Part shown: positions 11,839 to 28,258 of the stretch, piece by piece
Layout of the letters: every line of letters starts with the position of its first letter
Numbering within the stretch: the stretch's first letter is position 1
From: Anaeromyxobacter soli
GTDB taxonomy: Bacteria > Myxococcota > Myxococcia > Myxococcales > Anaeromyxobacteraceae
Assembly: GCF_022808855.1 (NCBI RefSeq)
Contig: NZ_JAKZLF010000005.1
Location: 87,487 to 151,486, forward strand
Reading direction: 5' to 3'
Length of the DNA: 64,000 nt
The notes under the pieces: generated by a model
What the model was told of the DNA's origin: nothing
The model's input: the letters and a program-made list of their open reading frames with translations, nothing else
Databases searched by the model: none
Program-made: the position numbers and the translations under genes

Positions 11839-13331
11839 CAGCGCTCCGCGAGCCCGGCCACCTCGGCGGGGTGAGGGCGGTAGGGGCCGGGCTTCTCGCC
11901 GCAGAGGCGCGGCGTCGGGAAGACCTTGCCCGGGTTCATGAGCGCGGCGCCGTCGAAGGCGCAGCGGACGCGCTGCATCGTGTCGAGATCGTCCGGCCCG
12001 AACTGCTCCGCCATGTACGCGGCCTTCTCCGCGCCGACGCCGTGCTCGCCGGTGATCGACCCGCCGTAGCGGATGCACAGGCGCAGGATCTCGCCGCCGA
12101 GCCGGGCCGCGCGCTCCTCCTCGCCCGGCACGCGCGCGTCGTAGAGCACGAGCGGGTGGAGGTTCCCGTCCCCGGCGTGGAAGACGTTCGCCACCCGCAG
12201 CCCCGCCTCCTCGGCGAGGCGCCCGATGTCGCGCAGCACCCGCGCGATCTCCGAGCGCGGGATGACTCCGTCCTCGACGAGGTAGCTCGGGCTGATCCGG
12301 CCCACGGCCGCGAACGCCGACTTTCGCCCCTTCCACATGAGCTGCCGCTCCGCCTCGTCGCGCGGCACGCGGATCTCGAGCGCGCCCGCCGCGCGCGCGA
12401 TCTCGATGGCGCGCGCCGAGACGTGCTCGACCTCGGCGCGGGGGCCGTCCGCGTCCATGAGCAGCGCCGCGCCCACGTCCGGCCAGTCGAGGCCCGTCGC
12501 GGCCTTGGCCGCCACGATCGCGAGCCGGTCCATCATCTCGATCGCCGCGGGCAGGATGCCCGCCGCGATGATGCCGGAGACCGCGGCGCCCGCCTCGTCG
12601 GTGGAGGGGAAGGTCGCGAAGAAGGTCCGCGTGGTCTCGGGCTTGCGCAGGAGCCGGACGGTGACCTCCGTGACCACGCCGAGCATCCCCTCGCTCCCGA
12701 CCAGCGCGGCGAGCAGGTCGTAGCCGGGCGCGTCGGGCGCCGGACCGCCCAGGTCGACGACGGCGCCGTCGGAGAGGACGACGCGGGCGGCGAGCACGTG
12801 GTTCGTCGTGAAGCCGTACTTGAGGCAGTGCGCGCCGCCGGAGTTCTCGGCGACGTTGCCGCCGATCGAGCAGACGCTCTGCGACGAGGGATCGGGCGCG
12901 TAGTAGAAGCCGGCGCCGGCCACCGCGCGCGTGACGTCGAGGTTGATGACGCCGGGCTCGACCCGCGCCCAGCCGTTCTCGAGGTCCAGCTCCAGGATCC
13001 GCCGCATGCGCGAGAGCGAGAGGACCGCGCAGCCCGGCACCGGGCGCGCGCCGCCGGAGAGGCCGGTCCCCGCGCCCCGCGGCACGAGCGGCACGCTCGC
13101 GTCGCGCGCCACGCGGACGACGGCTGCGACCTCCTCGGTCGAGCCGGGGAGGACGACGAGGTCCGGGCGGACGCGGCCGTGGGTCAGGCCGTCGCACTCG
13201 TAGACGAGCAGCTCCGCGGGATCGACGACCACGTTCCGGGGCCCGACGATCGCCGCGAGCTTCCGGGCGACGGCCCGCGCGCCGGCGCCTCCCCGCTGGG
13301 CCGCCTCCCCTGCTGCGCTCCGAGCGGTCAC
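11835..13331 (-). CDS. glcD: Glycolate/D-lactate oxidase subunit GlcD
   Basis: FAD-linked oxidase of 498 residues. The FAD-binding region contains PLVPRGAGTGLSGGA, SSQSVCSIGGNVAENSGGAHCLKYGFTTNHV and VGSEGMLGVVTEV. The C-terminal oxidase domain has VFHAGDGNLHPLVLYD and GGSITGEHGVGAEK, the metal- and substrate-binding motifs of the GlcD/D-2-hydroxyacid dehydrogenase family. The GTG start overlaps the dctM stop (GTGA), so the enzyme is coupled to the TRAP transporter genes. Glycolate versus D-lactate cannot be separated by eye; the three-subunit layout favours glycolate, whereas the transporter type favours lactate or 2-oxoacids. Confidence 0.93.
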   Translation of the reverse strand: MTARSAAGEAAQRGGAGARAVARKLAAIVGPRNVVVDPAELLVYECDGLTHGRVRPDLVVLPGSTEEVAAVVRVARDASVPLVPRGAGTGLSGGARPVPGCAVLSLSRMRRILELDLENGWARVEPGVINLDVTRAVAGAGFYYAPDPSSQSVCSIGGNVAENSGGAHCLKYGFTTNHVLAARVVLSDGAVVDLGGPAPDAPGYDLLAALVGSEGMLGVVTEVTVRLLRKPETTRTFFATFPSTDEAGAAVSGIIAAGILPAAIEMMDRLAIVAAKAATGLDWPDVGAALLMDADGPRAEVEHVSARAIEIARAAGALEIRVPRDEAERQLMWKGRKSAFAAVGRISPSYLVEDGVIPRSEIARVLRDIGRLAEEAGLRVANVFHAGDGNLHPLVLYDARVPGEEERAARLGGEILRLCIRYGGSITGEHGVGAEKAAYMAEQFGPDDLDTMQRVRCAFDGAALMNPGKVFPTPRLCGEKPGPYRPHPAEVAGLAERW

Positions 13332-15286
13332 CGGTAGAGCACCTCCGGGAGCCAGAGGCCGATCGCGGGGAAGAGGTAGAGCAGCAGGACCGCGAGGACC
13401 TGGATCGCCATGAACGGCATCATGCCCGCGAAGATCTGGTTCAGGGTCACGTGCTTGGGCGCGACCCCCTTCAGGTAGAAGGCGGCCATCGCGACGGGCG
13501 GCGACAGGAACGCGGTCTGGAGGTTCAGCGCCACGAGCAGGCCGAAGAACAGCGGGTCGATCTCGAAGTGGCCGAGGAGCGGGATGAAGATCGGCATGAA
13601 GATGACGATGATCTCCGTCCATTCCAGGGGCCAACCCAGGAGGAAGATGATGACCTGGGCGAGCAGCATGAACTGCACGGGCGAGAGGTTCAGCCCGAGC
13701 ACCCAGTGCTCGATGATCTGCTGCCCGCCGAGGAGCGCGAAGGCCGCCGAGAAGATCGACGAGCCGACGAACAGCCAGCAGACCATGGCGGTCGTCTTCG
13801 CGGTCAGGAACACCGACTCCTTGATCACGCTCCAGCGGAACTGGCGATAGGCGGCGGTGAGGAGCATGGCGCCGGCGGCGCCGAGGGCCGCCGCCTCGGT
13901 CGGCGTCGCCCACCCGAAGATGATCGACCCGAGCACGGCGAGGATGAGCGCCGTGAGCGGGAAGAACGAGGTGAGCAGCATCTTCAGGATCTCGAGCCGC
14001 TCGAACGTGAAGATGGCGTAGTGCAGCACGAGCACCACGAGGGCCGCCGCGAGCGCGATCCAGAACGCGAGGGGCACCGGCTTGCGCCCTGGGCCCTCCG
14101 CCACGCGGGCGCCCTCCGCGCGCTCCGCGGCCGCCTCGAGCGCCGACCCCGGCGCCTCCGCGCCCGGAGGCTCGGCGAGCGTCCCGGGGACGGGCTCCGC
14201 CAGCGGCGGCTCCACCACGCCCGGCGCCGCGGCCGCCTCGGCCTCGCCCGGCGGCTCCGCCACGCCCTCGTACACGAACGCGTCGGCGCCGCCGCCGGTC
14301 TCGGCGATCTCGCGCAGCCCGCCGGTGTCGATGACGATCTCCCGCGTGGCCTGGTGGACGACGAGGAACCCGAGCGCGGCGAGCAGCGCGGGCAGCGCGG
14401 AGACGGCGAGCTGGCCGGCGACCCAGCGCCGCCTCGGGCCGCCGGGCGCGGGGCGCAGGAGCGCGGCGACGAGGCCGGGCAGCGCGCGCCGGTGCTCGCC
14501 CCCCGCGATCGCGCGCGCGCTCGCCGTGAGCGGCACGCTCCGCTCGGACTCGGGCGGCATGGGCGCGAGGGAAGGCTTGAGCTTCGCCATCACGACGACG
14601 TACGCGATGTAGAGCCCGGCGAGCATGAGGCCGGGGAAGAACGCGCCGGCGTAGAGCTGCACCACCGACACCCCCGCCGTGGCTCCATAGAGGATGAGCA
14701 TCACCGACGGCGGGATGAGGATGCCGAGGCAGCCGCCGGCCGTGATCGCCCCCGCGGAGAGCTTGATGTCGTAGCCGGAGCGGAGCATCGCGGGGAACGC
14801 GAGCAGGCCCATGAGCGTGACCACCGCGCCGACGATCCCGGTGGCGGTGGCGAAGAGCGCGCAGGTGGCGAGCGTCGCGACGGCGAGCGAGCCGGGGATG
14901 AACGACATCGCGAGGTGCAGGCTCTTGAAGAGCTTCTCGATGAGGTTCGCCCGCTCGACCATGTAGCCCATGAAGACGAAGAGCGGCACCGCGATGAGGA
15001 CGTCGTTCGTCATCGTCGCGTAGGTGCGCTGGACCATGAGGTCGAGCGTCTGCTGGACCGCGAGGTCGGGGTTCGTCCAGCGGTAGGCGAGCCACGCGAA
15101 GAGGACGCCCATCCCCATGAGCGTGAAGGCGGTGGGGAAGCCCAGCATGATGGCGACCACCACGAGCGAGAGCATGAGCAGCCCGAGGTGGCCCTGCGTC
15201 CACTGCGACGGCGGCGGCATCACCACGACCGTCGCGAGGACGAGGAGCCCCATGAGCGTGAGGCCGAAGACGAGCTCCTTCCTCAC
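13328..15286 (-). CDS. dctM: TRAP transporter large permease (enlarged DctM)
   Basis: A 652-residue member of the TRAP large-subunit family, the ion-coupled translocating component. The N-terminal half (GFPTAFTLMG, VPLFVFMGYMVERANL, ATGIVGAVVTLMGLLAFPAML, GGCLGILIPPSVMLILYG) and C-terminal half (VLGSIIFGWATPTEAAALGA, QVIIFLLGWPLEWTEIIVIFMPIFIPLL, FLSPPVAMAAFYLKG) are standard for the mannitol/chloroaromatic/lactate-type branch. Usual DctM proteins have about 430 residues. Here about 195 extra residues (240-435) contain two more hydrophobic helices (about 287-310 and 404-425) around an Ala/Glu/Pro-rich loop. The start is a GTG overlapping the dctQ stop. Confidence 0.92.
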   Translation of the reverse strand: MRKELVFGLTLMGLLVLATVVVMPPPSQWTQGHLGLLMLSLVVVAIMLGFPTAFTLMGMGVLFAWLAYRWTNPDLAVQQTLDLMVQRTYATMTNDVLIAVPLFVFMGYMVERANLIEKLFKSLHLAMSFIPGSLAVATLATCALFATATGIVGAVVTLMGLLAFPAMLRSGYDIKLSAGAITAGGCLGILIPPSVMLILYGATAGVSVVQLYAGAFFPGLMLAGLYIAYVVVMAKLKPSLAPMPPESERSVPLTASARAIAGGEHRRALPGLVAALLRPAPGGPRRRWVAGQLAVSALPALLAALGFLVVHQATREIVIDTGGLREIAETGGGADAFVYEGVAEPPGEAEAAAAPGVVEPPLAEPVPGTLAEPPGAEAPGSALEAAAERAEGARVAEGPGRKPVPLAFWIALAAALVVLVLHYAIFTFERLEILKMLLTSFFPLTALILAVLGSIIFGWATPTEAAALGAAGAMLLTAAYRQFRWSVIKESVFLTAKTTAMVCWLFVGSSIFSAAFALLGGQQIIEHWVLGLNLSPVQFMLLAQVIIFLLGWPLEWTEIIVIFMPIFIPLLGHFEIDPLFFGLLVALNLQTAFLSPPVAMAAFYLKGVAPKHVTLNQIFAGMMPFMAIQVLAVLLLYLFPAIGLWLPEVLYR

Positions 15287-15915
15287 GGGCGCACCTCCTC
15301 GTGCTCCTTGCGGGCCACCACCTCGTCGAGCGCGGCGAGGTCCTCGTCCTTCACGTGGACCATCTCCTTCAGCTTCTCGACGTCCACCTCCTCTACGTCC
15401 TCCTGGCGCTGCGGCCACGCCCCGTCCCGGAGCGCGACGACGCAGCGGGCGATCTCGACGAGGCCCTGAAGCAGGAGGAGCGCCCCCGCGACCGGGATGA
15501 AGGCCTTGAACGGATAGAGGGGCGGGCCGTCGACCGTGATGGTCGAGTGCTCGCGGATGAGCCAGGACTCCCGCGCGTAGTCCCAGCCCGCCCACACCAT
15601 CGCGACCGCGCCCGGCAGGAAGAACGCGAGGTAGAGGACGAGGTCGATGGTCGCCTGCAGGCGCACGGGGAAGAAGCCGTAGAGCACGTCGCCCCGCACG
15701 TGGCCCCGCTTCGCCAGGGTGTACGCGCCCGCCATCATGAAGAGGACGCCGTACCCCATGATCTGCGCGTCGAACGCCCAGGCGTGCGGAGCGTCGAGGA
15801 GCTTCCGCGAGAGCACCTCCCAGGTGATGAGCCCCGTGAGCGCGACGATGAGCCAGGCGAAGAGCTGGCCGACCCGGGTGGAGAGCTTGTCGACCGTGAG
15901 GAGGAGCCGCTGCAT
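15283..15915 (-). CDS. dctQ: TRAP transporter small permease DctQ
   Basis: A 210-residue membrane protein with four predicted helices. The DctQ pattern is clear: an amphipathic start, WEVLSRKLLDAPHAWAFD, then GAYTLAKRGHVRGDVLYGFFP. The C-terminal ~45 residues (RQEDVEEVDVEKLKEM...) are a charged cytoplasmic extension longer than usual. It partners DctM and is required for transport. It begins nine bases after the dctP stop and ends inside the dctM start (GTGA). Confidence 0.92.
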   Translation of the reverse strand: MQRLLLTVDKLSTRVGQLFAWLIVALTGLITWEVLSRKLLDAPHAWAFDAQIMGYGVLFMMAGAYTLAKRGHVRGDVLYGFFPVRLQATIDLVLYLAFFLPGAVAMVWAGWDYARESWLIREHSTITVDGPPLYPFKAFIPVAGALLLLQGLVEIARCVVALRDGAWPQRQEDVEEVDVEKLKEMVHVKDEDLAALDEVVARKEHEEVRP

Positions 15916-15924
15916 GAGGGCGCC

Positions 15925-17085
15925 CTAGCCCTTCTTCGCGGCCTGCTTGCCGAAGAAGTGGTTGTAGGCCATGCGGAAGTCGACGTTGGTGTCGGCCTGC
16001 CAGCGGGCGGCGCGCTGCGCGAACTTGCGCTGCGACTCGAGCACCTTCTTGAACATCGGGTTCTCGGCGGCGCGCTTGTCCATCACCTCGTTCCAGATCT
16101 CGAGCTGCCGCTTCAGGACCGCGTCGGGCGTCTTGTAGAACTTCACGGCCTGCTTCTGCTGCATCTCCAGGTAGTCCGCGGAGTAGCGGTCGATCGCCTT
16201 CCACGACATGTCCGCCGAGGCGGCCTGGACGGCGTAGGAGACGATGTTGCGGAGGTCCTGCGGGAGCGCCTTGTACTTGGCGCCGTTGAACAGGACCTCG
16301 AACTGCTCCGAGCACTGATGGAAGCTCTGGAGCATGCAGATCTTGGAGACGTCGGGGAACCCGAGCGCCCGGTCCGACGAGGCGTTGTTGAACTCGGCCG
16401 CGTCGAGCAGGCCACGGTCCATCGCGGGCACGATCTCGGCGCCGGGCAGCGCGTTCACCGCCGCGCCCAGCCCGGTGAAGATGTCGATGGAGAGGCCGAC
16501 CGTCCGGAACTTCAGCCCCTTCATGTCGTCGACCTTGGCGACCGGCTTCTTGAACCAGCCGAGCGGCTGCGTGGGCATCGGCCCGTACAGCATGGAGACG
16601 ACGTCGAGGTTCAGGGACTTGTAGACCTCCTCCATGAGGTCCTTGCCGCCGCCGTAGTAGTGCCAGGCGAGCAGCATGTTCGGATCCATCCCGAACGCCG
16701 GGCCCGAGCCCCACAGCGCGAGGGCGGTGTTCTTCCCGTACCAGTAGGCGACGACGCCGTGGCCGCCGTCGAGCGTGCCCTTCCCGACGGCGTCGAGCAG
16801 GTCGAACGCCTTCACCACGGCGCCCGCGGGCAGCACCTCGATCTTGAGGCGGCCTCCCGACATCTCGTTCACCTTCTTCGCGAAGTCGAGGGCGTACTCG
16901 TGGAAGATGTCCTTCGTCGGCCACGTGCTCTGGAACCGCAGCGTGGTCGGAGCCTGCGCGACGTGGATGGTCGGGCCGGCCGCGACCGCCGCTCCGGCCG
17001 CGCCGAGCGCCGCCCTCCGGAGGAAGTCACGCCGCGTACGCTGCACCTTCGCCTCGGGCGCCGAGCCCTTCGCGTTCTTCTTCAT
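15925..17085 (-). CDS. dctP: TRAP transporter substrate-binding protein DctP (2-oxoacid/lactate type)
   Basis: A periplasmic binding protein of 386 residues and the first gene of the operon. It carries a twin-arginine signal (RTRRDFLRRAALGAAGAAVAAG), so it is probably exported folded by Tat. The mature part begins TLRFQSTWPTKDIFHEYALDFAKKVNEMSGGRLKIEVLPAGAVV. FRTVGLSIDIFTGLGAAVNALPGAEIVPAMDRGLLDAAEFNNASSD is interrupted here only for description; it resembles the TakP/TTHA0766 branch, whose members bind 2-oxoacids or calcium lactate. The ATG at 17085 has AGGAG seven bases upstream. With glcDEF behind it, the natural substrate is probably lactate, glycolate or a related hydroxyacid (inference). 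Confidence 0.9.
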   Translation of the reverse strand: MKKNAKGSAPEAKVQRTRRDFLRRAALGAAGAAVAAGPTIHVAQAPTTLRFQSTWPTKDIFHEYALDFAKKVNEMSGGRLKIEVLPAGAVVKAFDLLDAVGKGTLDGGHGVVAYWYGKNTALALWGSGPAFGMDPNMLLAWHYYGGGKDLMEEVYKSLNLDVVSMLYGPMPTQPLGWFKKPVAKVDDMKGLKFRTVGLSIDIFTGLGAAVNALPGAEIVPAMDRGLLDAAEFNNASSDRALGFPDVSKICMLQSFHQCSEQFEVLFNGAKYKALPQDLRNIVSYAVQAASADMSWKAIDRYSADYLEMQQKQAVKFYKTPDAVLKRQLEIWNEVMDKRAAENPMFKKVLESQRKFAQRAARWQADTNVDFRMAYNHFFGKQAAKKG

Positions 17086-17456
17086 GCCTGCGCTCCTTCT
17101 GCCGTGAGCCGGGGTAGGTGGGCTGCTGCAGAGGACTTCGTTGGAAGCGCGTCGAGCGGGCGGCAAGGCATCGGCGGGGCGTGCTGAACGGATTCCGTGC
17201 CGCGGCGCGGCCGGCTCCGGATGTGACGGCGAGCGCACATCCACGGCTTGCCGACGACACGGTGCGTCAGGTCATCGACACCACCGGGCGCCCCGACCTA
17301 GGCCCGAGCGGAAGAACCTCGGCGCGTCCATCGTTGAGCGGGAGTGCGGGCGTTCGCGGGTTCCGGAGGCCCTCAGCCGGAGCGCGCGGCGCGCGGCGTT
17401 TTGCCGCGCAAACGGTGGGGCCGACGCCCTGGCGTCCGCCCCCGCGAAGGAGTGGC
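17086..17456. promoter_or_regulatory. Divergent spacer between dctP and the giant lipoprotein gene
   Basis: A 371-bp spacer with no credible gene; it must hold the promoter of the dctPQM-glcDEF operon and that of the lipoprotein gene. The clearest structure is a perfect hairpin GCGCGGC-GTTTT-GCCGCGC at 17391-17409, 48 bases before the lipoprotein start. It could be an operator or attenuator. I could not identify convincing -35/-10 boxes. Confidence 0.4.
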
Positions 17457-20400
17457 GTGATAGCTTCCGGCCGCATGCTCCGCACCCGCTTCCACGCCCG
17501 GGCGATCGCAGCCGCGCTGCTCTTCTCGGCGGCGTGCGGCACCACCGAGGTCGCCTCACCTCCCTCCCCCACCACGCCCGGAACGCCGACGAGCGAGGGC
17601 ACCGGCGGCTCGGTGGGCACGGTCGGGGGCAGCGTGACCGCGCGGGGCGGCGGCCTCGTCGTGGCGGTCCCGGCGGGCGCGATCGGGTCCCCGCTCGACA
17701 TCACCATCACCGAGATCACGAACCACGCGCCGCACGGCACGGGGACGGCCTACCGGCTCGGCCCCGAGGGCACGAAGTTCTCCGCCCCCGTGGCGCTCAT
17801 CTTCAAGGTCGATCCCGACGTCTCGGTGTTCGACCTCGGCATCGCGACGCAGGACGCGTCGGGCTACTGGGTCAAGGTCCCCGGCGTCCGCCGCGACCCG
17901 GTCGCGCACACCCTCGTCGCCACCACCACGCACTTCAGCGACTGGGCGGTCGTCCCCGCCCCCTCGACGCGCGATCTCTCCGGCGTCTACAACATCACGT
18001 CCACCCGCGACGGCGTCACCGCCCACGGCATCTCGCAGCTCCACTTCGAGGACGGCAGCGCGAGCGCGAGCTACTACCTGCAGACCGGCCGGATCACCGC
18101 CGACTCGCCCATCACCATCCCGGGCGCCACCTGCAGCCCGACGACCGCGACGCAGGACGTCGGGCCGAACATCACGGAGATCCTCTCGAGCCCCGCGAGC
18201 TTCCGCTGGGGCGCGAGCGCCGTCTGGGACACCGCGTGCACGACGGGCACCGGCAGCCAGGTGCCGGGCTTCTCGTACGTCGTCTTCGACAGCTTCGGGA
18301 TCAACTATCTCCAGTGCGGGCGGTCGTACCTCGAGACGCCCCTCATCCAGACCGACGAGGTGCGCGGGCGGTACCGCATCGACTGCGGCAGCCAGGGCAC
18401 CATCGACGCCGACTGGCACTTCCAGCGCTGCTACGCCGGGGAGACCTGCCAGACCGCGAACCCCTGCAAGACCGCCGCGATCAGCTGCGACGCGGGCCTC
18501 CCCCAGTGCATCGAGAACGGCAACGTCACGAACGGCACGGTCTGCGACGTCAATCCGACCGCGCCTTACGAGGTCTGCGGCGACGGCGTCTGCAACGTCT
18601 GCCGGCTCGACTCGGCCTGCACGCCGACCAACCCGTGCCACGTGGGCCGGATCACCTGTGACACGGGTTTCGAGGTCTGCACGGACACCCTGGCGCTCGT
18701 CGCGAACGGCACGACGTGCGACGTGAATCCGTCCGCCCCGGAGGTCTGCTACCAGGGCTCCTGCGTCGCCTGCACCGCGGGCGTGGTCTGCGCGACGAAC
18801 CCGAACAAGTGCGTCGCCGGCACGACCTCCTGCGCCACCGGCCAGGAGGTCTGCGTCGACACGACGACCGCGATCGCCAACGGGACGACCTGCGGGACGA
18901 ACCAGGTCTGCTTCAACTCCACGTGCGTGGCCTGCACGGCCGGCACGGCCTGCGCGACGAACCCCAACAAGTGCGTCGCCGGCACGACCTCCTGCGCCAC
19001 CGGCCAGGAGGTCTGCGTCGACACGGCGACCGCGATCGCCAACGGGACGACCTGCGGGACGAACCAGGTCTGCTACAACTCCGCGTGCGTCGCCTGCACG
19101 GCCGGCACGGCCTGCGCGACGAACCCCAACAAGTGCGTCGCCGGCACGACCTCCTGCGCCACGGGCCAGGAGGTCTGCGTCGACACCACCACGACCATCG
19201 CGAACGGCACGACCTGCGGCACGGATCAGGTCTGCTTCAGCGGCACGTGCACCGCCTGCGCGGCGGGCGGCGCCTGCACGACGAACCCGAACCCCTGCGT
19301 CACCGGCGCGTTCTCCTGCGCCACCGGGCAGCAGACCTGCGAGAACACGGCGACGAGCATCGCCGCGGGCACGACCTGCGGCACGAACCAGGTGTGCAAC
19401 GGCAGCGGCACCTGCATCGCCTGCACGGCGAGCCTGGCCTGCTCGACCAACGCGAACCCCTGCGTCGCTGGCACGACCTCGTGCTCGACGGGCGCGCAGA
19501 CCTGCGAGAACACCGCCACGAACCTGGCGAACGGCACCGCCTGCGGCACGAACCAGGTCTGTAACGGGGGGACGTGCACCGCCTGCACCGCGGGCACCGC
19601 CTGCTCGGATAACCCGAACAAGTGCGTCGCGGGCGTGACCGACTGCTCGACCGGAACCCGCGCCTGCATCGACACGACGACGATCATCGCGAACGGCACG
19701 ACCTGCGACGTGAACCCGAGCGTCCCGGAGGTCTGCTTCAACGGGACGTGCAGCGCCTGCACCGCGGGCCTCGCCTGCACGGCGAACCCGGGCGCGGCGT
19801 GCCTCACGGGCGTGACGTCCTGCTCGACCGGCACCGAAACCTGCGTCGACTCGACGCCCAAGACGAACGGGACGATCTGCGGCACGGATCTCGTCTGCAA
19901 CGGGGGCACCTGCGTCGCCTGCGCCGCCGGCGGCGCGTGCTCGACGAACCCGGACGTGGCCTGCCACGACGGCGTCTTCTCGTGCAGCACGGGCACGCAG
20001 GCCTGCGTCGACGGCGCGGCCAAGGCGAACGGCACGACCTGCGGCACGAACCTGGTCTGCAACGGCGGGGCGTGCTCCGCCTGCACCGCCGGCACCGCCT
20101 GCGTCGGGAACCCGGATCCCGCCTGCCACGACGGCGTCACCTCCTGCGCCACCGGCGCCTCGGCGTGCGTCGACGGAGCGGCGAAGGCGAACGGCACCTC
20201 CTGCGGCACGAACCTCGTGTGCAGCGCCGGCGTGTGCTCGGCCTGCACGGCAAGCCTCGCCTGCACCACCAACCCGGACCCGGCCTGCCACGACGGCGTC
20301 ACCTCGTGCGCCACCGGCACCCAGACCTGCATCGACGGCGCCGCGAAGACGAACGGCACCACGTGCGGCTCGAACCTGGTCTGCAACGGCGGGGCGTGCA

Positions 20401-23400
20401 GCGCCTGCACGGCCAACGCCGCCTGCAACTACAACCCGAGCTCCGCGTGCCTCACGGGCATCACCTCCTGCTCGACGGGGAGCGAGACCTGCCTCGACTC
20501 GACGGCCAAGCCCAACGGGACGAGCTGCGGCACGAACCAGGTGTGCAACGGCGGCGTGTGCGCCTCCTGCACGGCGGGCCTCTCCTGCAGCACGAACCCG
20601 ACGCCGTGCATCCTCGGCGTGACCTCCTGCGCGACGGGCGTGCAGACGTGCGACGACACCGCTCCGGCCCAGCCCGCCCCGAACGGCACCACCTGCGACG
20701 TGAACACGAGCGTGCCCGAGGTCTGCCTGAACGGAACGTGCAACGCCTGCACGGCCGGCAGCGCCTGCTCGACGAACTCGAACCCCTGCGTCACCGGCGT
20801 CACCTCGTGTGCGACGGGCCAGCAGACCTGTGAGAACACCACCACGCCGATCGCGAACGGCACGACCTGCGGGACGAACCAGGTCTGCAACGCCGGCGCC
20901 TGCACCGCCTGCACCGCCGGCACCGCCTGCACCTCGAACCCCGGCGCCGCGTGCCTCACGGGCGTCACCTCCTGCTCGACGGGGACCTCGACCTGCGTCG
21001 ACTCGACGCCGAAGACGGACGGCACGAGCTGCGGGACGAACATGGTCTGCTCGGGCGGCGTGTGCGGCACCTGCACCGCGGGCCTCGACTGCACGACGAA
21101 CCCGAGCCCGTGCCTCGGTGGGACGACCTCCTGCTCGACCGGCACGCAGGCCTGCCTGGACGATCCGACGAAGCCGAAGGCGAACGGCCTCGTCTGCGGC
21201 GCGAACCAGGTCTGCAGCGGCGGCGTGTGCTCCGCGTGCACCGCGGGGCTCTCCTGCTCCGGGAACCCGAACGCCTGCCTCGCCGGCACGACCTCCTGCT
21301 CCACCGGGACGTCCACCTGCGTGGACTCGACGACGGTCCTCGCGAACGGGACGAGCTGCGGCACGAACCTCTTCTGCAGCGCGGGCGTCTGCTCGCCCTG
21401 CACCGCGGGCGTCGCCTGCACGACGAACCCGGACCCGTGCCTCACCGGCACGACCTCGTGCTCCACGGGGACGTCCACCTGCGTGAACACGGCCACCGCC
21501 GAGCCGAACGGCACGCTCTGCGGCACGAACCTCGTCTGCAACGGCGGCGCCTGCACCGCGTGCACGGCGAACCAAACCTGCGCGACGAACCCCAACAGGT
21601 GCCGGGCCGGCACGACCTCCTGCACCACCGGCACCGAGGCCTGCGTCGACAGCGCGACCGTCCTCGCGAACGGGACGACCTGCGGCGTGAACGAGGTGTG
21701 CAACGGCGGCGTCTGCTCGACCTGCACGGCGAACCTGCCCTGCGGCACGAACCCGAACCCGTGCGTCGACGGCACGACCTCCTGCTCGACCGGCACCCAG
21801 AGCTGCGTGGACACCGCGACGCCGAAGTCGAACGGGACGACCTGCGGCACGAACCTCGTCTGCAACGGCGGCGTGTGCAGCTCGTGCGTCGCCGGCACCG
21901 ACTGCACGCCCGCGGGCGCCTGCGTCGTGTCGCAGACCTCCTGCTCGACCGGCACCCAGACCTGCGTCGCGACCCCCACGCAGCTCGCGAACGGCACGAC
22001 CTGCGGCACGAACCAGGTCTGCAGCGGCGGCACCTGCACCGCGTGCACCGCCGGGGCGGCCTGCTCGACCAACACGAACTCGTGCGTCGCGGGCACGACG
22101 TCGTGCTCGACCGGCAGCCAGACCTGCGAGAACAGCACGACGAACCTCGCGAACGGCACGAGCTGCGGCACGAACCAGGTCTGCAACGCGGGCGCCTGCG
22201 TGGCCTGCGCCGCTGGCGGCGCGTGCTCCACGAACCCGAACCCCTGCGTCGACGGCACCGAGTCCTGCGCGACGGGGGCCCTGACCTGCGCCGACACGAG
22301 CACCGTGAAGGCGAACGGCACCTCCTGCGGCACCGACAAGGTGTGCAGCGCAGGGAGCTGCGTGGCGTGCGTCGCGGGCGCCGCGTGCACCACCAACTCG
22401 AACGTCTGCGTCGCCGGCGTCACCTCGTGCGCGACGGGCAGCCAGACCTGCGAGAACGGCACGGTCGCGACGAACGAGGGCGCCGCCTGCGGGACGGATC
22501 TCGTCTGCAAGGCGGGAGCGTGCCTCCGCGTCGTCACCGGCACGCGGCTCGTGACGCGCTGGACCACCGGCGCCGGCTGCTCGGTCGCCTCCCCGTGCCA
22601 GACCACGACGGTCGCGCCCGACGTGGTCTCGCTCACCGCGCAGGTCGAGGCCATCGGGCCGGACGGCACCCGCTACCCCGGCTCGTTCTCGCCGTCGGGC
22701 TCGTTCTCCATCTCGGGCGTGCCCCCCGGCGCCTACACCCTCGCGTTCACGGACGGCGCCGGCGTCACGCACTTCTACGAGACGTCGGCCACCTCCTTCG
22801 ACCTCGGCTACGACGTGCTCGGCCGCGAGGCCACCGCCGCGAGCGCCCCGACCCCCGTGACCCTCACCGTGTCCGGTCTCTCCGGCTGGATCGACAGCGA
22901 CGAGGTGCAGCTCGCCGCGCCCGACGTCGACGTCTGGGACGCGCCGATCTCCGGCACGGAGCTCGTCGCCGGCGAGGTCGGCGGGAGCGTCGTGGAGGAC
23001 TGGTCTTCGAGCTCGATCGGGCGAGCCCTGAACCTCGTCGGCGCGACGGACGCCGTGTGGGTGCACCAGCTCGCGACGTCCACGGTGACGAGCGGGATCC
23101 GCGCGTTCGCCTACCAGGCCATGACCCGCTACGGCGCGACGACCTTCGGCGCCGACCTGACGAACGGCGTCGCCGCGAGCCTCACCGCGCCGCTCGGCAC
23201 GACCACGCAGACGGGGACGCTCACGATCGACTGGCGCACGAGCCAGTTCGAGGCGCTGCTCGCGTCCATGGGCCCGGGCGCCCAGCCTGCCGCGAACCCG
23301 CACGCGCTCCTGGTCCGCACGCACCCCTACGCCCTCGCGAGCCCCGCCCCGGTCGCCGCCGGCGGCGTGCTCGAGCTGTTCCGCCTCGTCCAGCCCGCCG

Positions 23401-23972
23401 CCACCGCCGACGTGGATCTCACGGCGCTCACGCCGCCCATCGTCTACGGCCGGTACCTGGACCCGGCGCTCTGGTCGGAGTCGCGGGTGGCCTCGTTCAC
23501 GGCGCGCGTGAGCTACACCGCCCCCGGCGCGGCCACCTCGCTCGACGCGCTCGCGACGGTGTCCCGGCGCGAGCCCATGCTGCCCGCGCCTCCCTCGCCC
23601 ATCGTCCCCGCGGTCGGCCCCGTCCAGGCGCCGCTCGTGAACGGGCTCGACGCGCTCGGCACCCTCGGCGCCGTCGGCGCGACGCCGACGATCGGGTGGT
23701 CCGCCCCGCTGGTGGGCACGCCCTCGAGCTACGGCGTCACGCTCCGTGAGCTCTACGCGAGCGGTACTGCGAGCGCCACGCGCGTCGTCGCGACGTGGGC
23801 CGTCGCCGGTCGCTCGATCACGCTCCCGGCCGGCCTCCTCGTCGCGAACCGGACGTACTACGTCGAGATCACCGCCTTCGCGCGCACCGCCGAGCAGTTC
23901 GACACCGCGCCCAACCGCTCCTCCAACGTGGGGAGCGACGCGACGACGCTGACCTCGACGTTCTCGCCGTAA
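17457..23972 (+). CDS. Giant Cys-rich-repeat surface lipoprotein
   Basis: About 2,171 residues. A short basic n-region, AIAAALLFSAAC and a lipobox Cys at residue 27 mark a lipoprotein. A Thr/Ser/Pro linker is followed by a ZU5-like domain (GGSVTARGGGLVVAVPAGAIGSPLDI..., APVALIFKVDPDV, YWVKVPG). A middle domain (about 180-320) precedes 25 tandem units of about 54 residues (18429-22529), most with eight Cys. The C-terminal ~480 residues hold a prealbumin-like segment (GSFSISGVPPGAYTLAFTD), a beta-rich region and a fibronectin-like end. The GTG at 17457 has GAAGGAG five bases upstream; the ATG at 17475 is the alternative. Probably a cell-surface structural or adhesive protein. Confidence 0.85.
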   Translation: MIASGRMLRTRFHARAIAAALLFSAACGTTEVASPPSPTTPGTPTSEGTGGSVGTVGGSVTARGGGLVVAVPAGAIGSPLDITITEITNHAPHGTGTAYRLGPEGTKFSAPVALIFKVDPDVSVFDLGIATQDASGYWVKVPGVRRDPVAHTLVATTTHFSDWAVVPAPSTRDLSGVYNITSTRDGVTAHGISQLHFEDGSASASYYLQTGRITADSPITIPGATCSPTTATQDVGPNITEILSSPASFRWGASAVWDTACTTGTGSQVPGFSYVVFDSFGINYLQCGRSYLETPLIQTDEVRGRYRIDCGSQGTIDADWHFQRCYAGETCQTANPCKTAAISCDAGLPQCIENGNVTNGTVCDVNPTAPYEVCGDGVCNVCRLDSACTPTNPCHVGRITCDTGFEVCTDTLALVANGTTCDVNPSAPEVCYQGSCVACTAGVVCATNPNKCVAGTTSCATGQEVCVDTTTAIANGTTCGTNQVCFNSTCVACTAGTACATNPNKCVAGTTSCATGQEVCVDTATAIANGTTCGTNQVCYNSACVACTAGTACATNPNKCVAGTTSCATGQEVCVDTTTTIANGTTCGTDQVCFSGTCTACAAGGACTTNPNPCVTGAFSCATGQQTCENTATSIAAGTTCGTNQVCNGSGTCIACTASLACSTNANPCVAGTTSCSTGAQTCENTATNLANGTACGTNQVCNGGTCTACTAGTACSDNPNKCVAGVTDCSTGTRACIDTTTIIANGTTCDVNPSVPEVCFNGTCSACTAGLACTANPGAACLTGVTSCSTGTETCVDSTPKTNGTICGTDLVCNGGTCVACAAGGACSTNPDVACHDGVFSCSTGTQACVDGAAKANGTTCGTNLVCNGGACSACTAGTACVGNPDPACHDGVTSCATGASACVDGAAKANGTSCGTNLVCSAGVCSACTASLACTTNPDPACHDGVTSCATGTQTCIDGAAKTNGTTCGSNLVCNGGACSACTANAACNYNPSSACLTGITSCSTGSETCLDSTAKPNGTSCGTNQVCNGGVCASCTAGLSCSTNPTPCILGVTSCATGVQTCDDTAPAQPAPNGTTCDVNTSVPEVCLNGTCNACTAGSACSTNSNPCVTGVTSCATGQQTCENTTTPIANGTTCGTNQVCNAGACTACTAGTACTSNPGAACLTGVTSCSTGTSTCVDSTPKTDGTSCGTNMVCSGGVCGTCTAGLDCTTNPSPCLGGTTSCSTGTQACLDDPTKPKANGLVCGANQVCSGGVCSACTAGLSCSGNPNACLAGTTSCSTGTSTCVDSTTVLANGTSCGTNLFCSAGVCSPCTAGVACTTNPDPCLTGTTSCSTGTSTCVNTATAEPNGTLCGTNLVCNGGACTACTANQTCATNPNRCRAGTTSCTTGTEACVDSATVLANGTTCGVNEVCNGGVCSTCTANLPCGTNPNPCVDGTTSCSTGTQSCVDTATPKSNGTTCGTNLVCNGGVCSSCVAGTDCTPAGACVVSQTSCSTGTQTCVATPTQLANGTTCGTNQVCSGGTCTACTAGAACSTNTNSCVAGTTSCSTGSQTCENSTTNLANGTSCGTNQVCNAGACVACAAGGACSTNPNPCVDGTESCATGALTCADTSTVKANGTSCGTDKVCSAGSCVACVAGAACTTNSNVCVAGVTSCATGSQTCENGTVATNEGAACGTDLVCKAGACLRVVTGTRLVTRWTTGAGCSVASPCQTTTVAPDVVSLTAQVEAIGPDGTRYPGSFSPSGSFSISGVPPGAYTLAFTDGAGVTHFYETSATSFDLGYDVLGREATAASAPTPVTLTVSGLSGWIDSDEVQLAAPDVDVWDAPISGTELVAGEVGGSVVEDWSSSSIGRALNLVGATDAVWVHQLATSTVTSGIRAFAYQAMTRYGATTFGADLTNGVAASLTAPLGTTTQTGTLTIDWRTSQFEALLASMGPGAQPAANPHALLVRTHPYALASPAPVAAGGVLELFRLVQPAATADVDLTALTPPIVYGRYLDPALWSESRVASFTARVSYTAPGAATSLDALATVSRREPMLPAPPSPIVPAVGPVQAPLVNGLDALGTLGAVGATPTIGWSAPLVGTPSSYGVTLRELYASGTASATRVVATWAVAGRSITLPAGLLVANRTYYVEITAFARTAEQFDTAPNRSSNVGSDATTLTSTFSP
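18429..22529 (+). repeat. 25 tandem ~162-bp units encoding an 8-Cys repeat
   Basis: The coding DNA consists of 25 consecutive units of about 159-180 bp. Each encodes the pattern CTAG.AC..NP..C..G.TSC.TG...C.....ANGT.CGTNQVC....C.A, with eight Cys in most units. The first two units are divergent. Units 1-3 (18771-19256) are nearly identical at DNA level and point to recent duplication. Sub-types are visible: PACHDGV (units 8-10), AACLTGV (7, 11 and 14), and a longer CDVN..VPEVC form (the second divergent unit, 6 and 12). Unit length stays a multiple of three, so copy number can change without breaking the frame. Confidence 0.92.
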
Positions 23973-24070
23973 ACGGCCGATCAAGCTTCGCGAACAGGCG
24001 AGCGAACGGGTGAGCATCACCGGCGGAAGTGGGGCGTAGGGGTTCGGAGGCCGGGAGCACGCGAGCGGCG

Positions 24071-24114
24071 AGCGTCGCTCTCGCCGCGCGGGCATGCGAA
24101 CCGGACCTCCGGTT
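24071..24114. terminator. Hairpins between convergent lipoprotein and HNH genes
   Basis: Two inverted repeats lie in the 174-bp spacer: GGCGAG...CTCGCC within 24066-24087, and AACCGGA-CC-TCCGGTT (24099-24114) followed by TGATGTT. Placement between convergent genes (stops at 23972 and 24147) suggests bidirectional termination. There is no strong T-run. Confidence 0.45.
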
Positions 24115-24146
24115 TGATGTTCGGCTAACTCCGGGCCGCCGTAGCG

Positions 24147-25361
24147 TCACGACGCCCACATCCCCAGCTGCATGACGGGACGCAGAGGCGCCACGTCGGT
24201 GCGCGAGAGCGATGTCGGCCCGTCGCCCGCATCGCGGCGAAAGCGGTCCATGTGTTCGCGCCCAAAGGTTTTCTCAGCGTGAAGCAGGTTGTGAGCTCGG
24301 CAGGCGAGCCGGAGGTTGTCGATCGTCGACAGTCCCCCGAGGGCGGCGGGTTGGATGTGGTCGAGCTCGAGCCTCCAGCGGCTGTTGCAGCGACAGCCGT
24401 CCGGGCCGACCCACGCGCAGCGCCCGCCATCGCGCGTCCACACCGCGCGGCGCACTATCGCCGGGATCGTGGTCCTCGCAGCCGGCGGCTTCGCCGCGGT
24501 CTTCTTCGTCGCGGCGGCATTCGTCGTCCCGGCCTGCTTCGCTTCCTTCGTCTTCCGCTCCGGCGCGACAGCGCCTTTGCGCTTGCCGTGCTTTTCGATC
24601 GCGCAGCGGATCGCCTCGTGGAGCACCGCCGCGAGGTCGCCGTCCGGGACCTTGTGCGACAGAAGCGACCGGAGCGTCTCGAGGTCCTCCTTGCAGGCGC
24701 GGTCGAGGGTGACCCGGAGCGACCAGTGGCTCTCCGAGACGGCGAGCGTCTCGGCCTTGCGCTTCGGCTGTGCGACGGGGGGCGGTGGCGCCGGCAGCGC
24801 GCCGGCCGCGGGTCCCGGTTCGAGGGTCGGCTTCGCGGTGCCGGGCTCGGTCGCCGTCTCGGCCTGCCCTGCATCGGAAGCCGGGAGCTGCAGCGCTGCG
24901 CTTCCCGCGGCGGGCGCGCGCTCGGCCAGCTTGCGGAGGCCAGCGCGCGGAGCGGTTCGCGCCTGGATGGAGACGACGAGCTGCTCGACCTCGGCGCGCG
25001 TCCGGAAGGCGGCGCGAGCGAGGAGGTCGTCCACGTTCTCCTCGGTGAGCACCTGGCCGAGAAGCGCCACCGTGGATAGGCACAAGCGCCCATCGCGCAG
25101 CGGAGCCTCGAGGCTCGGGAAGCGGCGCAAGACCCGCATGGCCTGGATGCGCCGGCCGGCGGCGCCTTCCCGCAGGTGGAGCGCCTCCAGGCAATAGGCC
25201 CAGAGGGACGCATGGCCGACCTCGACGAAGGCGCGGCGCCGATCAAACTCGTCGAGGTGCAGGAGAAAGTCGACCTGGACGTTCCGTTCCTCTCCGGCGA
25301 GCTCGCGCAGGCGCAGGGCGAGGACGTTCGATTCGAGAGCAGCGGGGGCGAGCGCGGACAT
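24147..25361 (-). CDS. HNH endonuclease-domain protein (DUF222-like layout)
   Basis: A protein of 404 residues. The C-terminal ~90 residues hold an HNH nuclease: WTRDGGRCAWVGPDGCRCNS (zinc-ribbon Cys), then LELDHIQPAALGG and NLRLACRAHNLLHAEKTFG, with His, Asn and His in the expected positions. The helical N-terminal part (NVQVDFLLHLDEFDRRRAFVEVGHASLWAYCLEALHLREGAAGRRI) is the long-HNH type found in many copies in myxobacteria. A low-complexity Pro/Ala/Lys linker separates the two. The ATG has GGAGGT seven bases upstream. Many relatives are solitary genes of unknown role. A mobile or selfish origin is possible, and the repeat-rich spacer beside it fits that idea. Confidence 0.85.
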   Translation of the reverse strand: MSALAPAALESNVLALRLRELAGEERNVQVDFLLHLDEFDRRRAFVEVGHASLWAYCLEALHLREGAAGRRIQAMRVLRRFPSLEAPLRDGRLCLSTVALLGQVLTEENVDDLLARAAFRTRAEVEQLVVSIQARTAPRAGLRKLAERAPAAGSAALQLPASDAGQAETATEPGTAKPTLEPGPAAGALPAPPPPVAQPKRKAETLAVSESHWSLRVTLDRACKEDLETLRSLLSHKVPDGDLAAVLHEAIRCAIEKHGKRKGAVAPERKTKEAKQAGTTNAAATKKTAAKPPAARTTIPAIVRRAVWTRDGGRCAWVGPDGCRCNSRWRLELDHIQPAALGGLSTIDNLRLACRAHNLLHAEKTFGREHMDRFRRDAGDGPTSLSRTDVAPLRPVMQLGMWAS

Positions 25362-25878
25362 GGGGTGACCTCCAGTACACCCTTCGTAACACGCGATTTC
25401 CGGAGCTCCCGAGACGCTCCAGGCTCGCGCCTGCGCGGCGTTCTCCGCTGCACCCTCGTCGGAGCCTCAAACCGATCGGCGCGCGCTTCCCGCGCGAGGT
25501 ACGTGCGCGAGAGCGACCCTCCCGCGCCTACTCATATGCCGAGCGCGATCGAGGCGAGAAGGCGTCAATGGGAATGTTTCACCCACCGCAACTGGGACGC
25601 CGCCCTGAGCGCGAGCGACGCTGCGAAGTTCCGGTGGACTATCGCTGGCGATAGTTGTGACTCTACGTGAACTGCGCGGCGACTCACGCGACGCCCCGGT
25701 CCGTGCGCCGGCGCGATCTCCGGAACATGGCCGAAACGCGTGAGTCGCGGCACCGAAGGGGGATCGCGAATCACGGACTGTCGTTTACGCGCGATGCGAC
25801 CGCCGGCCGCGTGCCCCTCCGGGCCGGCGTCCGCACGGGGGCTCGCACGGACGTCCGCCCCGCTCCCACCTTGGCTCC
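25362..25878. other. Gene-free, repeat-rich spacer
   Basis: 517 bp without a credible gene. It holds a perfect palindrome ACTATCGC-TG-GCGATAGT (25638-25655), which is part of a 32-bp element found again at 35889-35920. It also holds a 12-bp inverted repeat GCGACTCACGCG/CGCGTGAGTCGC (25679-25690 and 25737-25748), and GCGAATCACG followed by CTGTCGTT (25766-25785), matching the arm of the hairpin at 41642-41703. The spacer looks like accumulated palindromic-repeat debris. The promoter of the PrsW-like gene must lie at its right end. Confidence 0.55.
25638..25671. repeat. Palindrome-headed dispersed element, copy A
   Basis: Starts with the perfect palindrome ACTATCGC-TG-GCGATAGT and continues to CTACGTGAAC. 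Positions 25641-25672 match 35889-35920 at 24 of 32 positions, with the blocks CGCTGGCGAT and GTGAAC identical. Both copies are intergenic. Nature unknown. Confidence 0.45.
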
Positions 25879-26562
25879 ATGCCGTGGGAGCTCCTCCTCG
25901 CCGTCGCGTGCCTCTCGTCGGGACTCGCCTGGGCCTCGCTGGCGGCGCGCCGGGCGGGGGAGATCCGGGGTCTGGCCCTTCACTCCCTGTTCGGGGGCGC
26001 CGCGGCGTTCGGCTTCGCCGTGATCGCCTACGACCTCCTGGACGGGGCGGGCGTGCGGCTCGAGTGGGAGCGGCTGTCCCACGCCGGGCTCGCCTCCGCC
26101 GCGCCCCTCGCGGGCGCCATCGGCCTCGTGGAGGAGGGCGCGAAGCTCGCGGGGCTGCTGCTCGTCGTGGAGCGCGGCTGGCGAACGCGGAGCGTGATGG
26201 GCGCCGCGGTCGGCGTCTCGGCCGGGTTCGCGGCGCTCGAGGCGCTCACCACGCTCCAGGGCTGGGACTCGCCGGTCGCGCTCGCGAGGGTGGCGCTCGG
26301 CCCGGCCGCGCACGCGCTGCTCGCGCTCCCCCTCGCCCTCGGCGTCGCTGCGTTCGCGCGCGACGCGCGCCGCGCCTGGGGCTCCCTCGCGGGCGGGCTC
26401 GCCCTGTCCGCGGCGCTGCACGCGGCGGGAGACCTCAGCCTCGCGTCCGACGCGGGGAAGCTCGGCTACGGCGCGGCGCTCCTCGCGGCGCCGCTGTGGC
26501 TCTACCTCCGCGCGCGCCTCCCTCCGCGCGCCGCCCAGGCGCCGGTGCCGGTCGCGCGCTGA
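25879..26562 (+). CDS. PrsW-like intramembrane metalloprotease
   Basis: An integral membrane protein of 227 residues with about seven hydrophobic helices. The PrsW/CPBP-like catalytic motifs are visible: GLVEEGAKLAGLLLV (EE..K), GVSAGFAALEAL (glutamate in helix) and two His-containing helices, GPAAHALLALPLALG and ALHAAGDLS. Family members cleave membrane proteins such as anti-sigma factors. The protein is shorter than PrsW of Bacillus but has all core motifs. No anti-sigma factor is adjacent, so the substrate is unknown. Confidence 0.75.
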   Translation: MPWELLLAVACLSSGLAWASLAARRAGEIRGLALHSLFGGAAAFGFAVIAYDLLDGAGVRLEWERLSHAGLASAAPLAGAIGLVEEGAKLAGLLLVVERGWRTRSVMGAAVGVSAGFAALEALTTLQGWDSPVALARVALGPAAHALLALPLALGVAAFARDARRAWGSLAGGLALSAALHAAGDLSLASDAGKLGYGAALLAAPLWLYLRARLPPRAAQAPVPVAR

Positions 26563-26582
26563 ACGACGAAGCGGGGCTGCGC

Positions 26583-27707
26583 TCACTGCCCGGCGGCCAC
26601 GTAGGCCGCGACCTCTCGCCAGACGTGCTCGAACTGCGGCCGGTCGAACCCGCTGCCGCTCGTGAGCCAGTCGAAGTGCGGCGGCACGCGCGTCGGGTGG
26701 TGGAAGTGGCCGATGACGTCGAGGTGATCGGCCCAGGCCGCGTGGATGACGTCGCCCCGGACCTGGCTCAGGGTCGGGACCATCCCGTCGTTCGCGCGCG
26801 CGTCGGTGCGCCACCCGTACGCGCGGCGCAGGACGGCGGCCTGGGCGCGGGTGAGCCGCGGCTGGTGGGCGGCGGGCGTGCGGGATGCGACGCGGTAGAG
26901 CGCCACGTACACCGCGTGCGTCGTCTGGGCGTAGGGATCGAGGCCCGCGCCGAGGGCGGAGCGGATCCCCGGCGGCCGCGCCCGGGTCACCACGCAGCCG
27001 TAGCGCACCCCCGGCCGGTCGTGCGTCGCCGCGTTGAACACGTCCATCGCGCCGGGGGTGATCTGGCCCACCAGATCCTGGTCCTTGCCGAGGCTCGCGA
27101 AGAACGACTCGATCTCCTCGCGGCGATCGCGCGAGAAGTCCGCGAGGAGATCCTTCAGGAGCTGGTCGACGAGGCTGCCCGGCGCCGCGTCGCGACGCCG
27201 GAGGATCCGGGCGACGCGCAGCCCGAGGCCGATGGGGAGCCGGCCCGCCCGGATCACGTAGATGGTCAGGACGGAGAGGAGCCGCAGCAGCTGCTGGCCG
27301 AGGAGGCTGTTGAAGAGGTGCGCGACCGGCGTGCCGTGGTGCGGGGCCGAGACGGTCACGACGGTGCGGACCGCGCGCGCGCAGCGCTCGACGTCGACGG
27401 CCGACGGGAGCGACACGTCGGGCGTGACGACGAGGCGCGCGTCGAGGCCGCCGCTCGAGTGGCCGATCACGCTGACGCTGCCGCCCTTCTCGTCGAGGAG
27501 CTCGTCGATGGACTCGACGAGCCGGGCCGCCCGGACCCGCAGGGAGGCGGTGGGGATCGTCCTCACCACCCGGACCTCGCCGCGGACCCCGAGGGCGGGC
27601 CCGATCTCGGACAGGTACTCGCGGACGTGGCCGAAGTAGGCGAAGTCGCCGAGGCTCGCGAACCCGAAGAAGCCCGGGACCAGCATGAGGTGATGCGGCC
27701 CGTTCAC
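26583..27707 (-). CDS. Alpha/beta-hydrolase lipase/esterase
   Basis: A protein of 374 residues with the triad of family I-type lipases: VIGHSSGGLDARL (nucleophile Ser), NDGMVPTLSQ (Asp) and ADHLDVIGHF (His). LMLVPGFFGFASLGDFAYF is the oxyanion-hole start, and VSAPHHGTPVAHLF is typical of triacylglycerol lipases. No signal peptide is evident, so it may be cytoplasmic or use another export route. The GTG start lacks a good ribosome site. It converges with the PrsW-like gene (20-bp gap). The natural lipid is unknown. Confidence 0.88.
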   Translation of the reverse strand: MNGPHHLMLVPGFFGFASLGDFAYFGHVREYLSEIGPALGVRGEVRVVRTIPTASLRVRAARLVESIDELLDEKGGSVSVIGHSSGGLDARLVVTPDVSLPSAVDVERCARAVRTVVTVSAPHHGTPVAHLFNSLLGQQLLRLLSVLTIYVIRAGRLPIGLGLRVARILRRRDAAPGSLVDQLLKDLLADFSRDRREEIESFFASLGKDQDLVGQITPGAMDVFNAATHDRPGVRYGCVVTRARPPGIRSALGAGLDPYAQTTHAVYVALYRVASRTPAAHQPRLTRAQAAVLRRAYGWRTDARANDGMVPTLSQVRGDVIHAAWADHLDVIGHFHHPTRVPPHFDWLTSGSGFDRPQFEHVWREVAAYVAAGQ

Positions 27708-27920
27708 CGGGGAAATCTAGCCCCCGCGCGGCCGCCTCCGGACTCCCAGGCGTGGTGCGGCGCGAGCGCACGGGACGAAGCCCCGATCGAGCCGGGCCCG
27801 TCACGCACAGACACACCGGACCCACGCGAGCGGCTCCAGCTGCACGCGCTCCGCTCCAGGAGGCCTCGAGCTCGTCTCGCGCGACCGACTTCACGTGACT
27901 CGGCGCGCGGCTCGACGAGC

Positions 27921-27946
27921 CTCTCGCGGGCGGAGGTCCGCGAGAG
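27921..27946 (-). terminator. Hairpin after the GNAT gene
   Basis: CTCTCGCGG-N8-CCGCGAGAG, a perfect nine-pair stem, ends at the base next to the GNAT stop codon (27947-27949 on minus). No T-run. Probable transcript end or 3' stabiliser. Confidence 0.5.
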
Positions 27947-28258
27947 TCAGACGAGCACGTCGCGCAGCGAGGCGTCGCGATCGAAGACGGCGCGCGCGTA
28001 CGGGCAGATCGGCACGAAGCGCGTCCCGCTCGCGCGCGCCCAGCTCACGGCCGCGTCCACGAGCTTCCGGGCCACCCCCTGCCCCCGCAGCGCGTCGTTC
28101 ACCTCGGTGTGCTCGATCACGGCGCGATCTCCGCCCTCGCGCGCGTACGAGAGCTCCGCCATGCGCCGCCCGCCCTGCTCGACGTAGAACGCGCCGCGGC
28201 CGCCCTGCTCCTCGTGCCGCACGTCGAGCCCGCCCGCCTCGAGGTTCTCCTCGCTCAT
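27947..28258 (-). CDS. Small GNAT-family N-acetyltransferase (YjdJ type)
   Basis: A 103-residue single-domain protein of the short COG2388-like GNAT group. YVEQGGRRMAELSYAREGG and IEHTEVNDALRGQGVARKLVDAAVSWARASGTRFVPICPYA show the family pattern: the RGQGVA acetyl-CoA loop and the VPICPYA strand with its conserved Cys. The substrate is unknown; relatives may act on small molecules or protein termini. The ATG at 28258 is chosen because the family starts there; no strong ribosome site is visible. Confidence 0.85.
   Translation of the reverse strand: MSEENLEAGGLDVRHEEQGGRGAFYVEQGGRRMAELSYAREGGDRAVIEHTEVNDALRGQGVARKLVDAAVSWARASGTRFVPICPYARAVFDRDASLRDVLV

Follow-up and report, generated by a model that had tools for sequence, protein, structure and literature searches.

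A gene for a giant Cys-rich lipoprotein in Anaeromyxobacter soli (RefSeq assembly GCF_022808855.1, contig NZ_JAKZLF010000005.1, positions 87,487 to 151,486; this whole stretch of 64,000 nucleotides is referred to here as the window) shares features with several described systems, namely, I) TraA of Myxococcus; II) the autoproteolytic ZU5 domains; and III) the ADAMTS Cys-rich domain 2 (ADAMTS_CR_2, PF17771). TraA, which combines a PA14 domain, Cys-rich repeats, and MYXO-CTERM, is likewise a myxobacterial surface protein with tandem Cys-rich repeats, and these were proposed by its authors to form a rigid stalk (PMC3325183, PMC6372800). However, the window protein has a predicted lipid-anchored ZU5 head as its base, and an NCBIfam scan at E ≤ 1 returned no family for it, the TraA-type repeats (TIGR04201) and MYXO-CTERM (TIGR03901) included. 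Anaeromyxobacter has been reported to be without traAB (PMC6372800). The second group comprises the ZU5 domains of PIDD, the FIIND of CARD8/NLRP1, Nup98, and bacterial polymorphic toxins, with which the window protein shares the ZU5 fold and an H-F-S at the cleavage position, although it is a lipoprotein of non-toxin architecture in which no toxin domain was matched. The PIDD ZU5 self-cleaves at HF/S and Nup98 at HFS, and CARD8 and NLRP1 use SF/S, where the Ser is indispensable and the first residue matters little (PMC3210808). Self-processing by ZU5 has already been proposed for the base of bacterial surface filaments and for surface proteins generally, and a CxH motif was named for the domain (Zhang et al., PMC3482391). 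The likeness to ADAMTS_CR_2 lies in the spacing around NGT.CG...VC..G.C, but the window protein is bacterial and has 25 tandem copies. Among the literature listings searched, which gave the beginnings of abstracts, no description of this protein or of its repeat was found.

The locus is read here, with rather more confidence than doubt, as encoding an outer-membrane lipoprotein with a disulfide-locked stalk on a ZU5 base that probably cleaves itself. The predicted base comprises a lipid-anchored ZU5 domain and a small β-barrel; a long stalk of 25 eight-Cys mini-domains, with about four disulfides each, would present a C-terminal β-sandwich/fibronectin type III (FN3) region away from the cell; and ZU5 would probably self-cleave at HF|S, so that the stalk chain is held non-covalently on the anchored stub. 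Export, disulfides, stalk function, and cleavage are deduced, the folds are predicted, and the array, its register, the range of unit numbers, the swapped stalks, and the conservation of HFS can be read off the sequence itself. The parts are of known kinds and their combination is unusual. An initial annotation had the anatomy right, was wrong about ongoing expansion of the array, and overlooked the candidate self-cleavage site at the base, which is the most interesting feature. The features are as follows, with dN and dS denoting nonsynonymous and synonymous divergence.

17475 to 23972, plus strand: coding sequence of the giant lipoprotein, 2165 amino acids (aa) with 207 Cys; dN/dS against Anaeromyxobacter terrae about 0.17 to 0.59, depending on the segment.
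17475 to 17537, plus strand: candidate signal peptide and lipobox-like site with the putatively lipidated Cys21 (MLRTRFHARAIAAALLFSAAC), recognized by inspection; the A. terrae counterpart is MLRTRFLARAIAAALLISAAC.
17592 to 17960, plus strand: ZU5 domain, residues ~40-162, from a structure match, Foldseek, and Pfam ZU5 on the aligned heads.
17931 to 17939, plus strand: H153-F154-S155, predicted autoproteolysis site (F154|S155), from motif comparison (PMC3210808).
17961 to 18428, plus strand: second head domain, a small β-barrel by predicted structure, with four Cys that do not vary among the 11 aligned heads.
18429 to 22529, plus strand: array of 25 eight-Cys units, from sequence and from the predicted models of units 1-5 and 22-25.
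18771 to 19094, plus strand: units 3 and 4, the one pair that is clearly recent, with 94% DNA identity and a dS of 0.105.
22530 to 23969, plus strand: C-terminal region ending in a predicted FN3 fold (residues 2046-2165, nucleotides 23610-23969), from family search and predicted structure.

The protein is real and conserved, and it looks exported. Its reading frame is single and uninterrupted; the ATG at 17475 (MLRTRFHARAIAAALLFSAAC) is a likelier start than 17457, from which the gene had been drawn and where an in-frame GTG does stand, and the stop lies at 23970-23972. The mature protein would be ~210 kDa and is laid out as a head (residues ~40-318), the array (residues 319-1685), and the C-terminal region (residues 1686-2165), its Cys being distributed as Cys21, four in the head, 200 in the 25 units of eight, and two after the array. 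The annotated extent of about 4.1 kb, with 25 repeats and around 200 Cys, agrees with the 4101 bp measured, in which units are 159-180 bp long (mostly 162), share a mean between-unit identity of 66%, and have ten invariant columns, namely, the eight Cys and two Gly; such an array is no chance effect. It is also confined to one gene, as all 25 matches to the repeat in the genome at E ≤ 0.001 fall there, and the head and C-terminal profiles give one match each in the genome. The annotated export as a lipoprotein would fit a candidate signal peptide, recognized by inspection, with a charged start, a hydrophobic core, and F-S-A-A-C as the lipobox-like site, in which Ser stands at -3 in place of the usual Leu; relatives such as A. 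oryzae have LAAC.

The predicted structures agree with this layout. The model of the head with units 1-5 has a mean predicted local distance difference test score (pLDDT) of 88.6, and that of units 22-25 with the C-terminus 82.5, weakening in a stretch that follows the array; within the array units of both models, the mean per 10-residue block is ~77-92. Both are confident all-β models, in which each unit would be a run of short β-hairpins. The head resembles ankyrin ZU5 domains (that of ankyrin-B, 4d8o: VIA Z 13.6, root-mean-square deviation (rmsd) 2.7, 121 residues aligned; 3f59_A: Z 13.1; Foldseek E 1.2e-7), which bears out the ZU5-like start of the annotation. All 11 aligned heads are hit by Pfam ZU5 (PF00791) at E ≤ 1 (best 3.2e-6), and the window head, at 16.3 bits and E 0.012, lies under the curated cut-off of 21 bits. 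The second head domain resembles a designed β-barrel (VIA Z 8.5, rmsd 3.8, 120 aligned) and OmpA/TbpB barrels (Z ~6), which are middling scores. Similarly, the fibronectin-like end is seen in the model of residues 2046-2165 (VIA Z 9.3, rmsd 2.0, 90 aligned), Pfam fn3 at E ≤ 0.01 matching one of the 28 rows of the C-terminal alignment (A5), which is not the window row.

In the model, H153-F154-S155 sits at the turn that links the final two strands of ZU5. F154, which is model residue 133, falls on residue 677 of UNC5b if the last eight aligned residues are taken as ungapped, a position that has been equated with the scissile Phe of CARD8 (PMC3210808). Conservation was assessed in ZU5 domains taken from matches that aligned to about model position 110 or further, not every one of which was included; 92 were distinct, and 81 remained after 11 with a gap at the motif had been dropped. 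H-[FL]-[ST] occurs in 64 of these 81 myxobacterial domains (47 HFS, 12 HLS, and 5 HFT), and when the alignment columns are ordered by conservation, those of S, F, and H come 10th to 12th. A Cys two residues before the H, as in CxH, was found in none of the 81. It is plausible, if short of probable, that HFS is a structural β-turn only and that the protein stays a single chain: many heads also conserve the D-W that follows HFS, a Leu occupies the position in UNC5b that corresponds to the scissile Phe (PMC3210808), so that the turn can exist without HFS, and the hidden Markov model was built from rows with HFS in 10 of 11. A mere turn is harder to square with the finding that S/T stands two residues beyond the H in every one of the 64 domains that have it, the 17 that lack H comprising 12 with S/T and five without (Fisher p 2.4e-4 for the association of H with S/T, relatedness being ignored), and with a tripeptide identical to that of PIDD and Nup98, in which it is catalytic. 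The idea of ZU5 self-processing is not new; within the literature listings, neither this precise HFS site in the lipoprotein family nor a giant disulfide stalk borne on it was found described.

The view that the array serves as a stalk on this probably self-cleaving base draws on a survey of 195 Myxococcota genomes. The repeat was found at E ≤ 1e-6 in at least 30 of the 195, 28 of them in the same order as A. soli; scoring covered at most 34 candidates in each genome, and some genomes that bear the repeat may be missed. There were 20 full-length head matches, and the tails of 19 were followed (a second copy in G041 was left out): nine have at least two Cys-rich units, five have one (L011, L095, L096, L098, and L099, each of which ends in it), one has a part-unit (L097), and four have none. 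The multi-unit tails hold 25 units in the window gene and in A. terrae, eight in A. oryzae and eight in its neighboring paralogue, five in A. oryzisoli, and four in G039, and those of G033, G042, and G047 are variant in form or truncated where the locus ends. In A. oryzae the second head gene, whose eight Cys units are of a variant kind, is found close to the first and points the other way (L018, complement 14136-15554; L012, 1288-3723). With A. terrae excluded, 23 of the 25 window units are closest to another unit of the same protein, as is expected if arrays grew separately, and the units of A. oryzae and A. oryzisoli pair with each other. Judging from these comparisons, same-head relatives carry 1 to 25 units, grown separately in several lineages. 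A single unit is the likely starting state, and the array would have arisen by repeated duplication of such a unit, which still ends shorter head proteins.

In four genomes of the same genus, the same head carries no Cys units and is followed instead by Ig/Calx-beta/cadherin-like repeats. Cys-free cadherin-like repeats follow it in G001, G002, and G006, and more than 2800 residues of Cys-free Calx-beta-like repeats follow it in G005; these names are our own reading of the repeats, except for one Cadherin_5 match among 11 heads. The G005 protein, of more than 3300 aa (L084, 743-10693, minus strand), occupies the same slot as the window gene, between the equivalents of window positions 17211 and 25814, and is inverted; the copies in G001, G002, and G006 are at other loci, the one in G001 ~210 kb from the dctP gene. 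The family of the C-terminal region occurs in 98 of the 195 Myxococcota genomes, often in open reading frames (ORFs) of ~520 aa, and is array-free in A. oryzae (L013). By these distributions, each of the three parts (head, stalk, and C-terminal region) is a mobile module in its own right, and it is chiefly on this that the reading of the array as a spacer or stalk depends. Its units may instead each bind a polymer or protein, like the Cys-rich modules of animal matrix proteins, for which the weak ADAMTS_CR_2 likeness would speak (18 of 25 units at E ≤ 0.1, best 8.3e-5; ADAMTS-4 in the PDB at E 0.041); in alignment A5, 10 of the 28 rows are also hit by PF17771 (E ≤ 0.01, best 2.6e-11). However, the likeness stays under the Pfam cut-off of 27.3 bits for the window protein, both as a whole (19.5 bits) and for the last four units with the C-terminus (25.9 bits), and aromatic residues are few (12 in 25 units), which makes a ligand-binding array unlikely. 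Structural matches to the units listed no ADAMTS or EGF-type structure, and this carries little weight because ZU5, barrel, and FN3 rows took up the lists. The best reading of the array is that of an exchangeable stalk, which in this protein would be locked by disulfides.

That the Cys are paired in disulfides, as predicted, is the better reading of the array. Apart from Cys21 there are 206 Cys, an even number, with none in residues 22-154, and the complete set of eight is present in 257 of 278 distinct units. Genes of the VKOR family of disulfide-forming enzymes number two in the A. soli genome and one or two in each of the other eight genomes of the genus. The annotation had left the choice between heavy disulfide bonding and metal binding open; disulfides are favored by the even 206, and neither haem nor metal sites were found, as CxxCH is missing from the whole protein and the 25 units hold only four His. 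For its link to extracellular redox proteins no support was found, the CxxCH check being the only one made. A high Cys content and the 24 CxxC junctions between units might suit an array of 200 Cys that binds metal or shuttles electrons in extracellular redox metabolism. The four His and single Met of the 25 units, the lack of CxxCH, the even Cys number, the complete sets of eight, and the Cys-free stalks borne by the same head in four same-genus genomes all make this very improbable. Two units from different loci (L014 and L054) lack both C1 and C4 and retain the remaining six Cys, and C4 is missing in no other of the 278 units; this is a hint of a C1-C4 disulfide from too few cases, several other missing Cys being alignment shifts or cut ends.

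With confidence just short of even, we propose that these proteins are self-cleaving Myxococcota surface lipoproteins, in which a 13-kDa lipid-anchored ZU5 stub would cut at HF|S and grip a 197-kDa disulfide-locked chain non-covalently by strand packing. The stub would be without Cys except for the lipidated one, the chain would hold the other 206, and the stalk would be detachable and possibly force-sensitive, making the family a bacterial counterpart of the ZU5/GAIN-cleaved animal receptors, with eight-Cys, Calx-beta-like, and cadherin-like stalk modules exchanged between species. A number of observations weigh against the overall reading. The -3 residue of the lipobox is Ser, the usual residue being Leu, and the structure predictions were built on shallow alignments (33 and 28 rows). 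No H is present in 17 of the 81 ZU5 domains, 12 of which keep S/T and five of which have neither, e.g., the G039 head with GFG; with H or S lost in such domains, cleavage is not universal, and by analogy with CARD8 the 12 that keep S/T can still cleave. Cys parity could be used in a few relatives, being even in A. oryzae (68) and its paralogue (68) and odd in L097 (9 after the lipobox). Finally, arrays of 19-22 units occur without a recognizable ZU5 head in Archangium-like metagenome-assembled genomes, which makes the array a module of its own whose role need not be tied to a ZU5 base.

The array had been annotated as still expanding, with units 1-3 nearly identical. Several past rounds of duplication and mixed sub-types are borne out by the unit comparisons, and near-identical units do exist; they are units 3, 4, and 5, however, which two divergent units precede. 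DNA identities are 94% for units 3/4, 88% for 4/5, and 86% for 3/5, with dS of 0.105, 0.26, and 0.41, respectively. The close orthologue compared, that of A. terrae SG22 (L017/L074), lies at the same locus with 84% protein identity and likewise has 25 units and 207 Cys in register, both genomes being drafts (80 contigs for A. soli and ~140 for A. terrae) in which exact duplicate units could be collapsed. The best DNA match of 20 of the 25 window units is the A. terrae unit at the same position; for units 3, 4, 5, and 10 it is another unit of the A. soli array and for unit 14 it is A. terrae unit 4, units 3-5, 10, and 14 being of another sub-type in A. terrae. When all 50 units are placed in one tree, 20 of its 21 cherries unite orthologous units of the same position and the remaining one joins window units 3 and 4, the only pair clearly younger than the species split (the same-position median dS being 0.28). 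Selection is purifying in all segments (dN < dS), e.g., in the C-terminus (dN 0.058, dS 0.337) and units 16-25 (dN 0.074, dS 0.271), and weakest in units 1-2 (dN 0.220, dS 0.375).

With 25 units in register in both species, the number 25 predates their split, and recent copy-number growth is rejected for this species pair; the repeat number is constant between the two species, and constancy across strains is what the annotation itself had given as a refutation of its reading. The recent event looks like an overwriting of unit 4 by unit 3, with the number unchanged, and since the split the array would have been held at 25 with local unit-over-unit copying. An actively variable tandem repeat (a contingency locus), with copy number varying among strains, might be suggested by the youth of the unit 3/4 pair and by the wide variation in unit number among more distant relatives, but it is improbable given the same 25 in register at this median dS.

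Around the gene, window positions 10109-13366, 17252-23968, and 25794-35585 are matched in order in A. terrae, with blocks of 84-93% identity outside the array. The TRAP transporter genes dctPQM (13451-17082, minus strand) are present here and in G005 and missing beside the A. terrae orthologue, where a retained 185-bp match to window 13465-13646 suggests that the transporter was lost in A. terrae. Downstream, an HNH endonuclease gene (24147-25361, minus strand) lies within a 1.7-kb repeated block (24009-25724); among eight other copies of this block compared in the same genome, four match exactly 24009-25724 and four nearly, with 84-90% DNA identity, and at E ≤ 1e-20 the protein is matched 18 times in the genome and 37 times in G005, fragments included. 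A. terrae is without the block at this site (window 23968|25794 corresponds to 10209|10251 there). Given its lack at the A. terrae site, the block resembles a mobile element, although no transposase is visible in it. A 2179-aa antisense ORF over the whole lipoprotein gene (17556-24095, minus strand) was rejected as a gene, being explained by composition: 2138 open antisense codons were observed, and at least 2100 were reached in 16 of 200 synonymous permutations.

The finding corrects a tempting reading, in that near-identical units are compatible with a fixed repeat number while units overwrite each other. The graded relatives, in which one type of head bears 1, 4, 5, 8, or 25 units or a different stalk, allow stalk length to be compared with function. 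If the proposed reading is true, the family would offer a direct test of whether ZU5 self-cleavage, as proposed from sequence (PMC3482391), happens in bacteria, and of how a very long fiber locked by disulfides is assembled and released by a bacterium.

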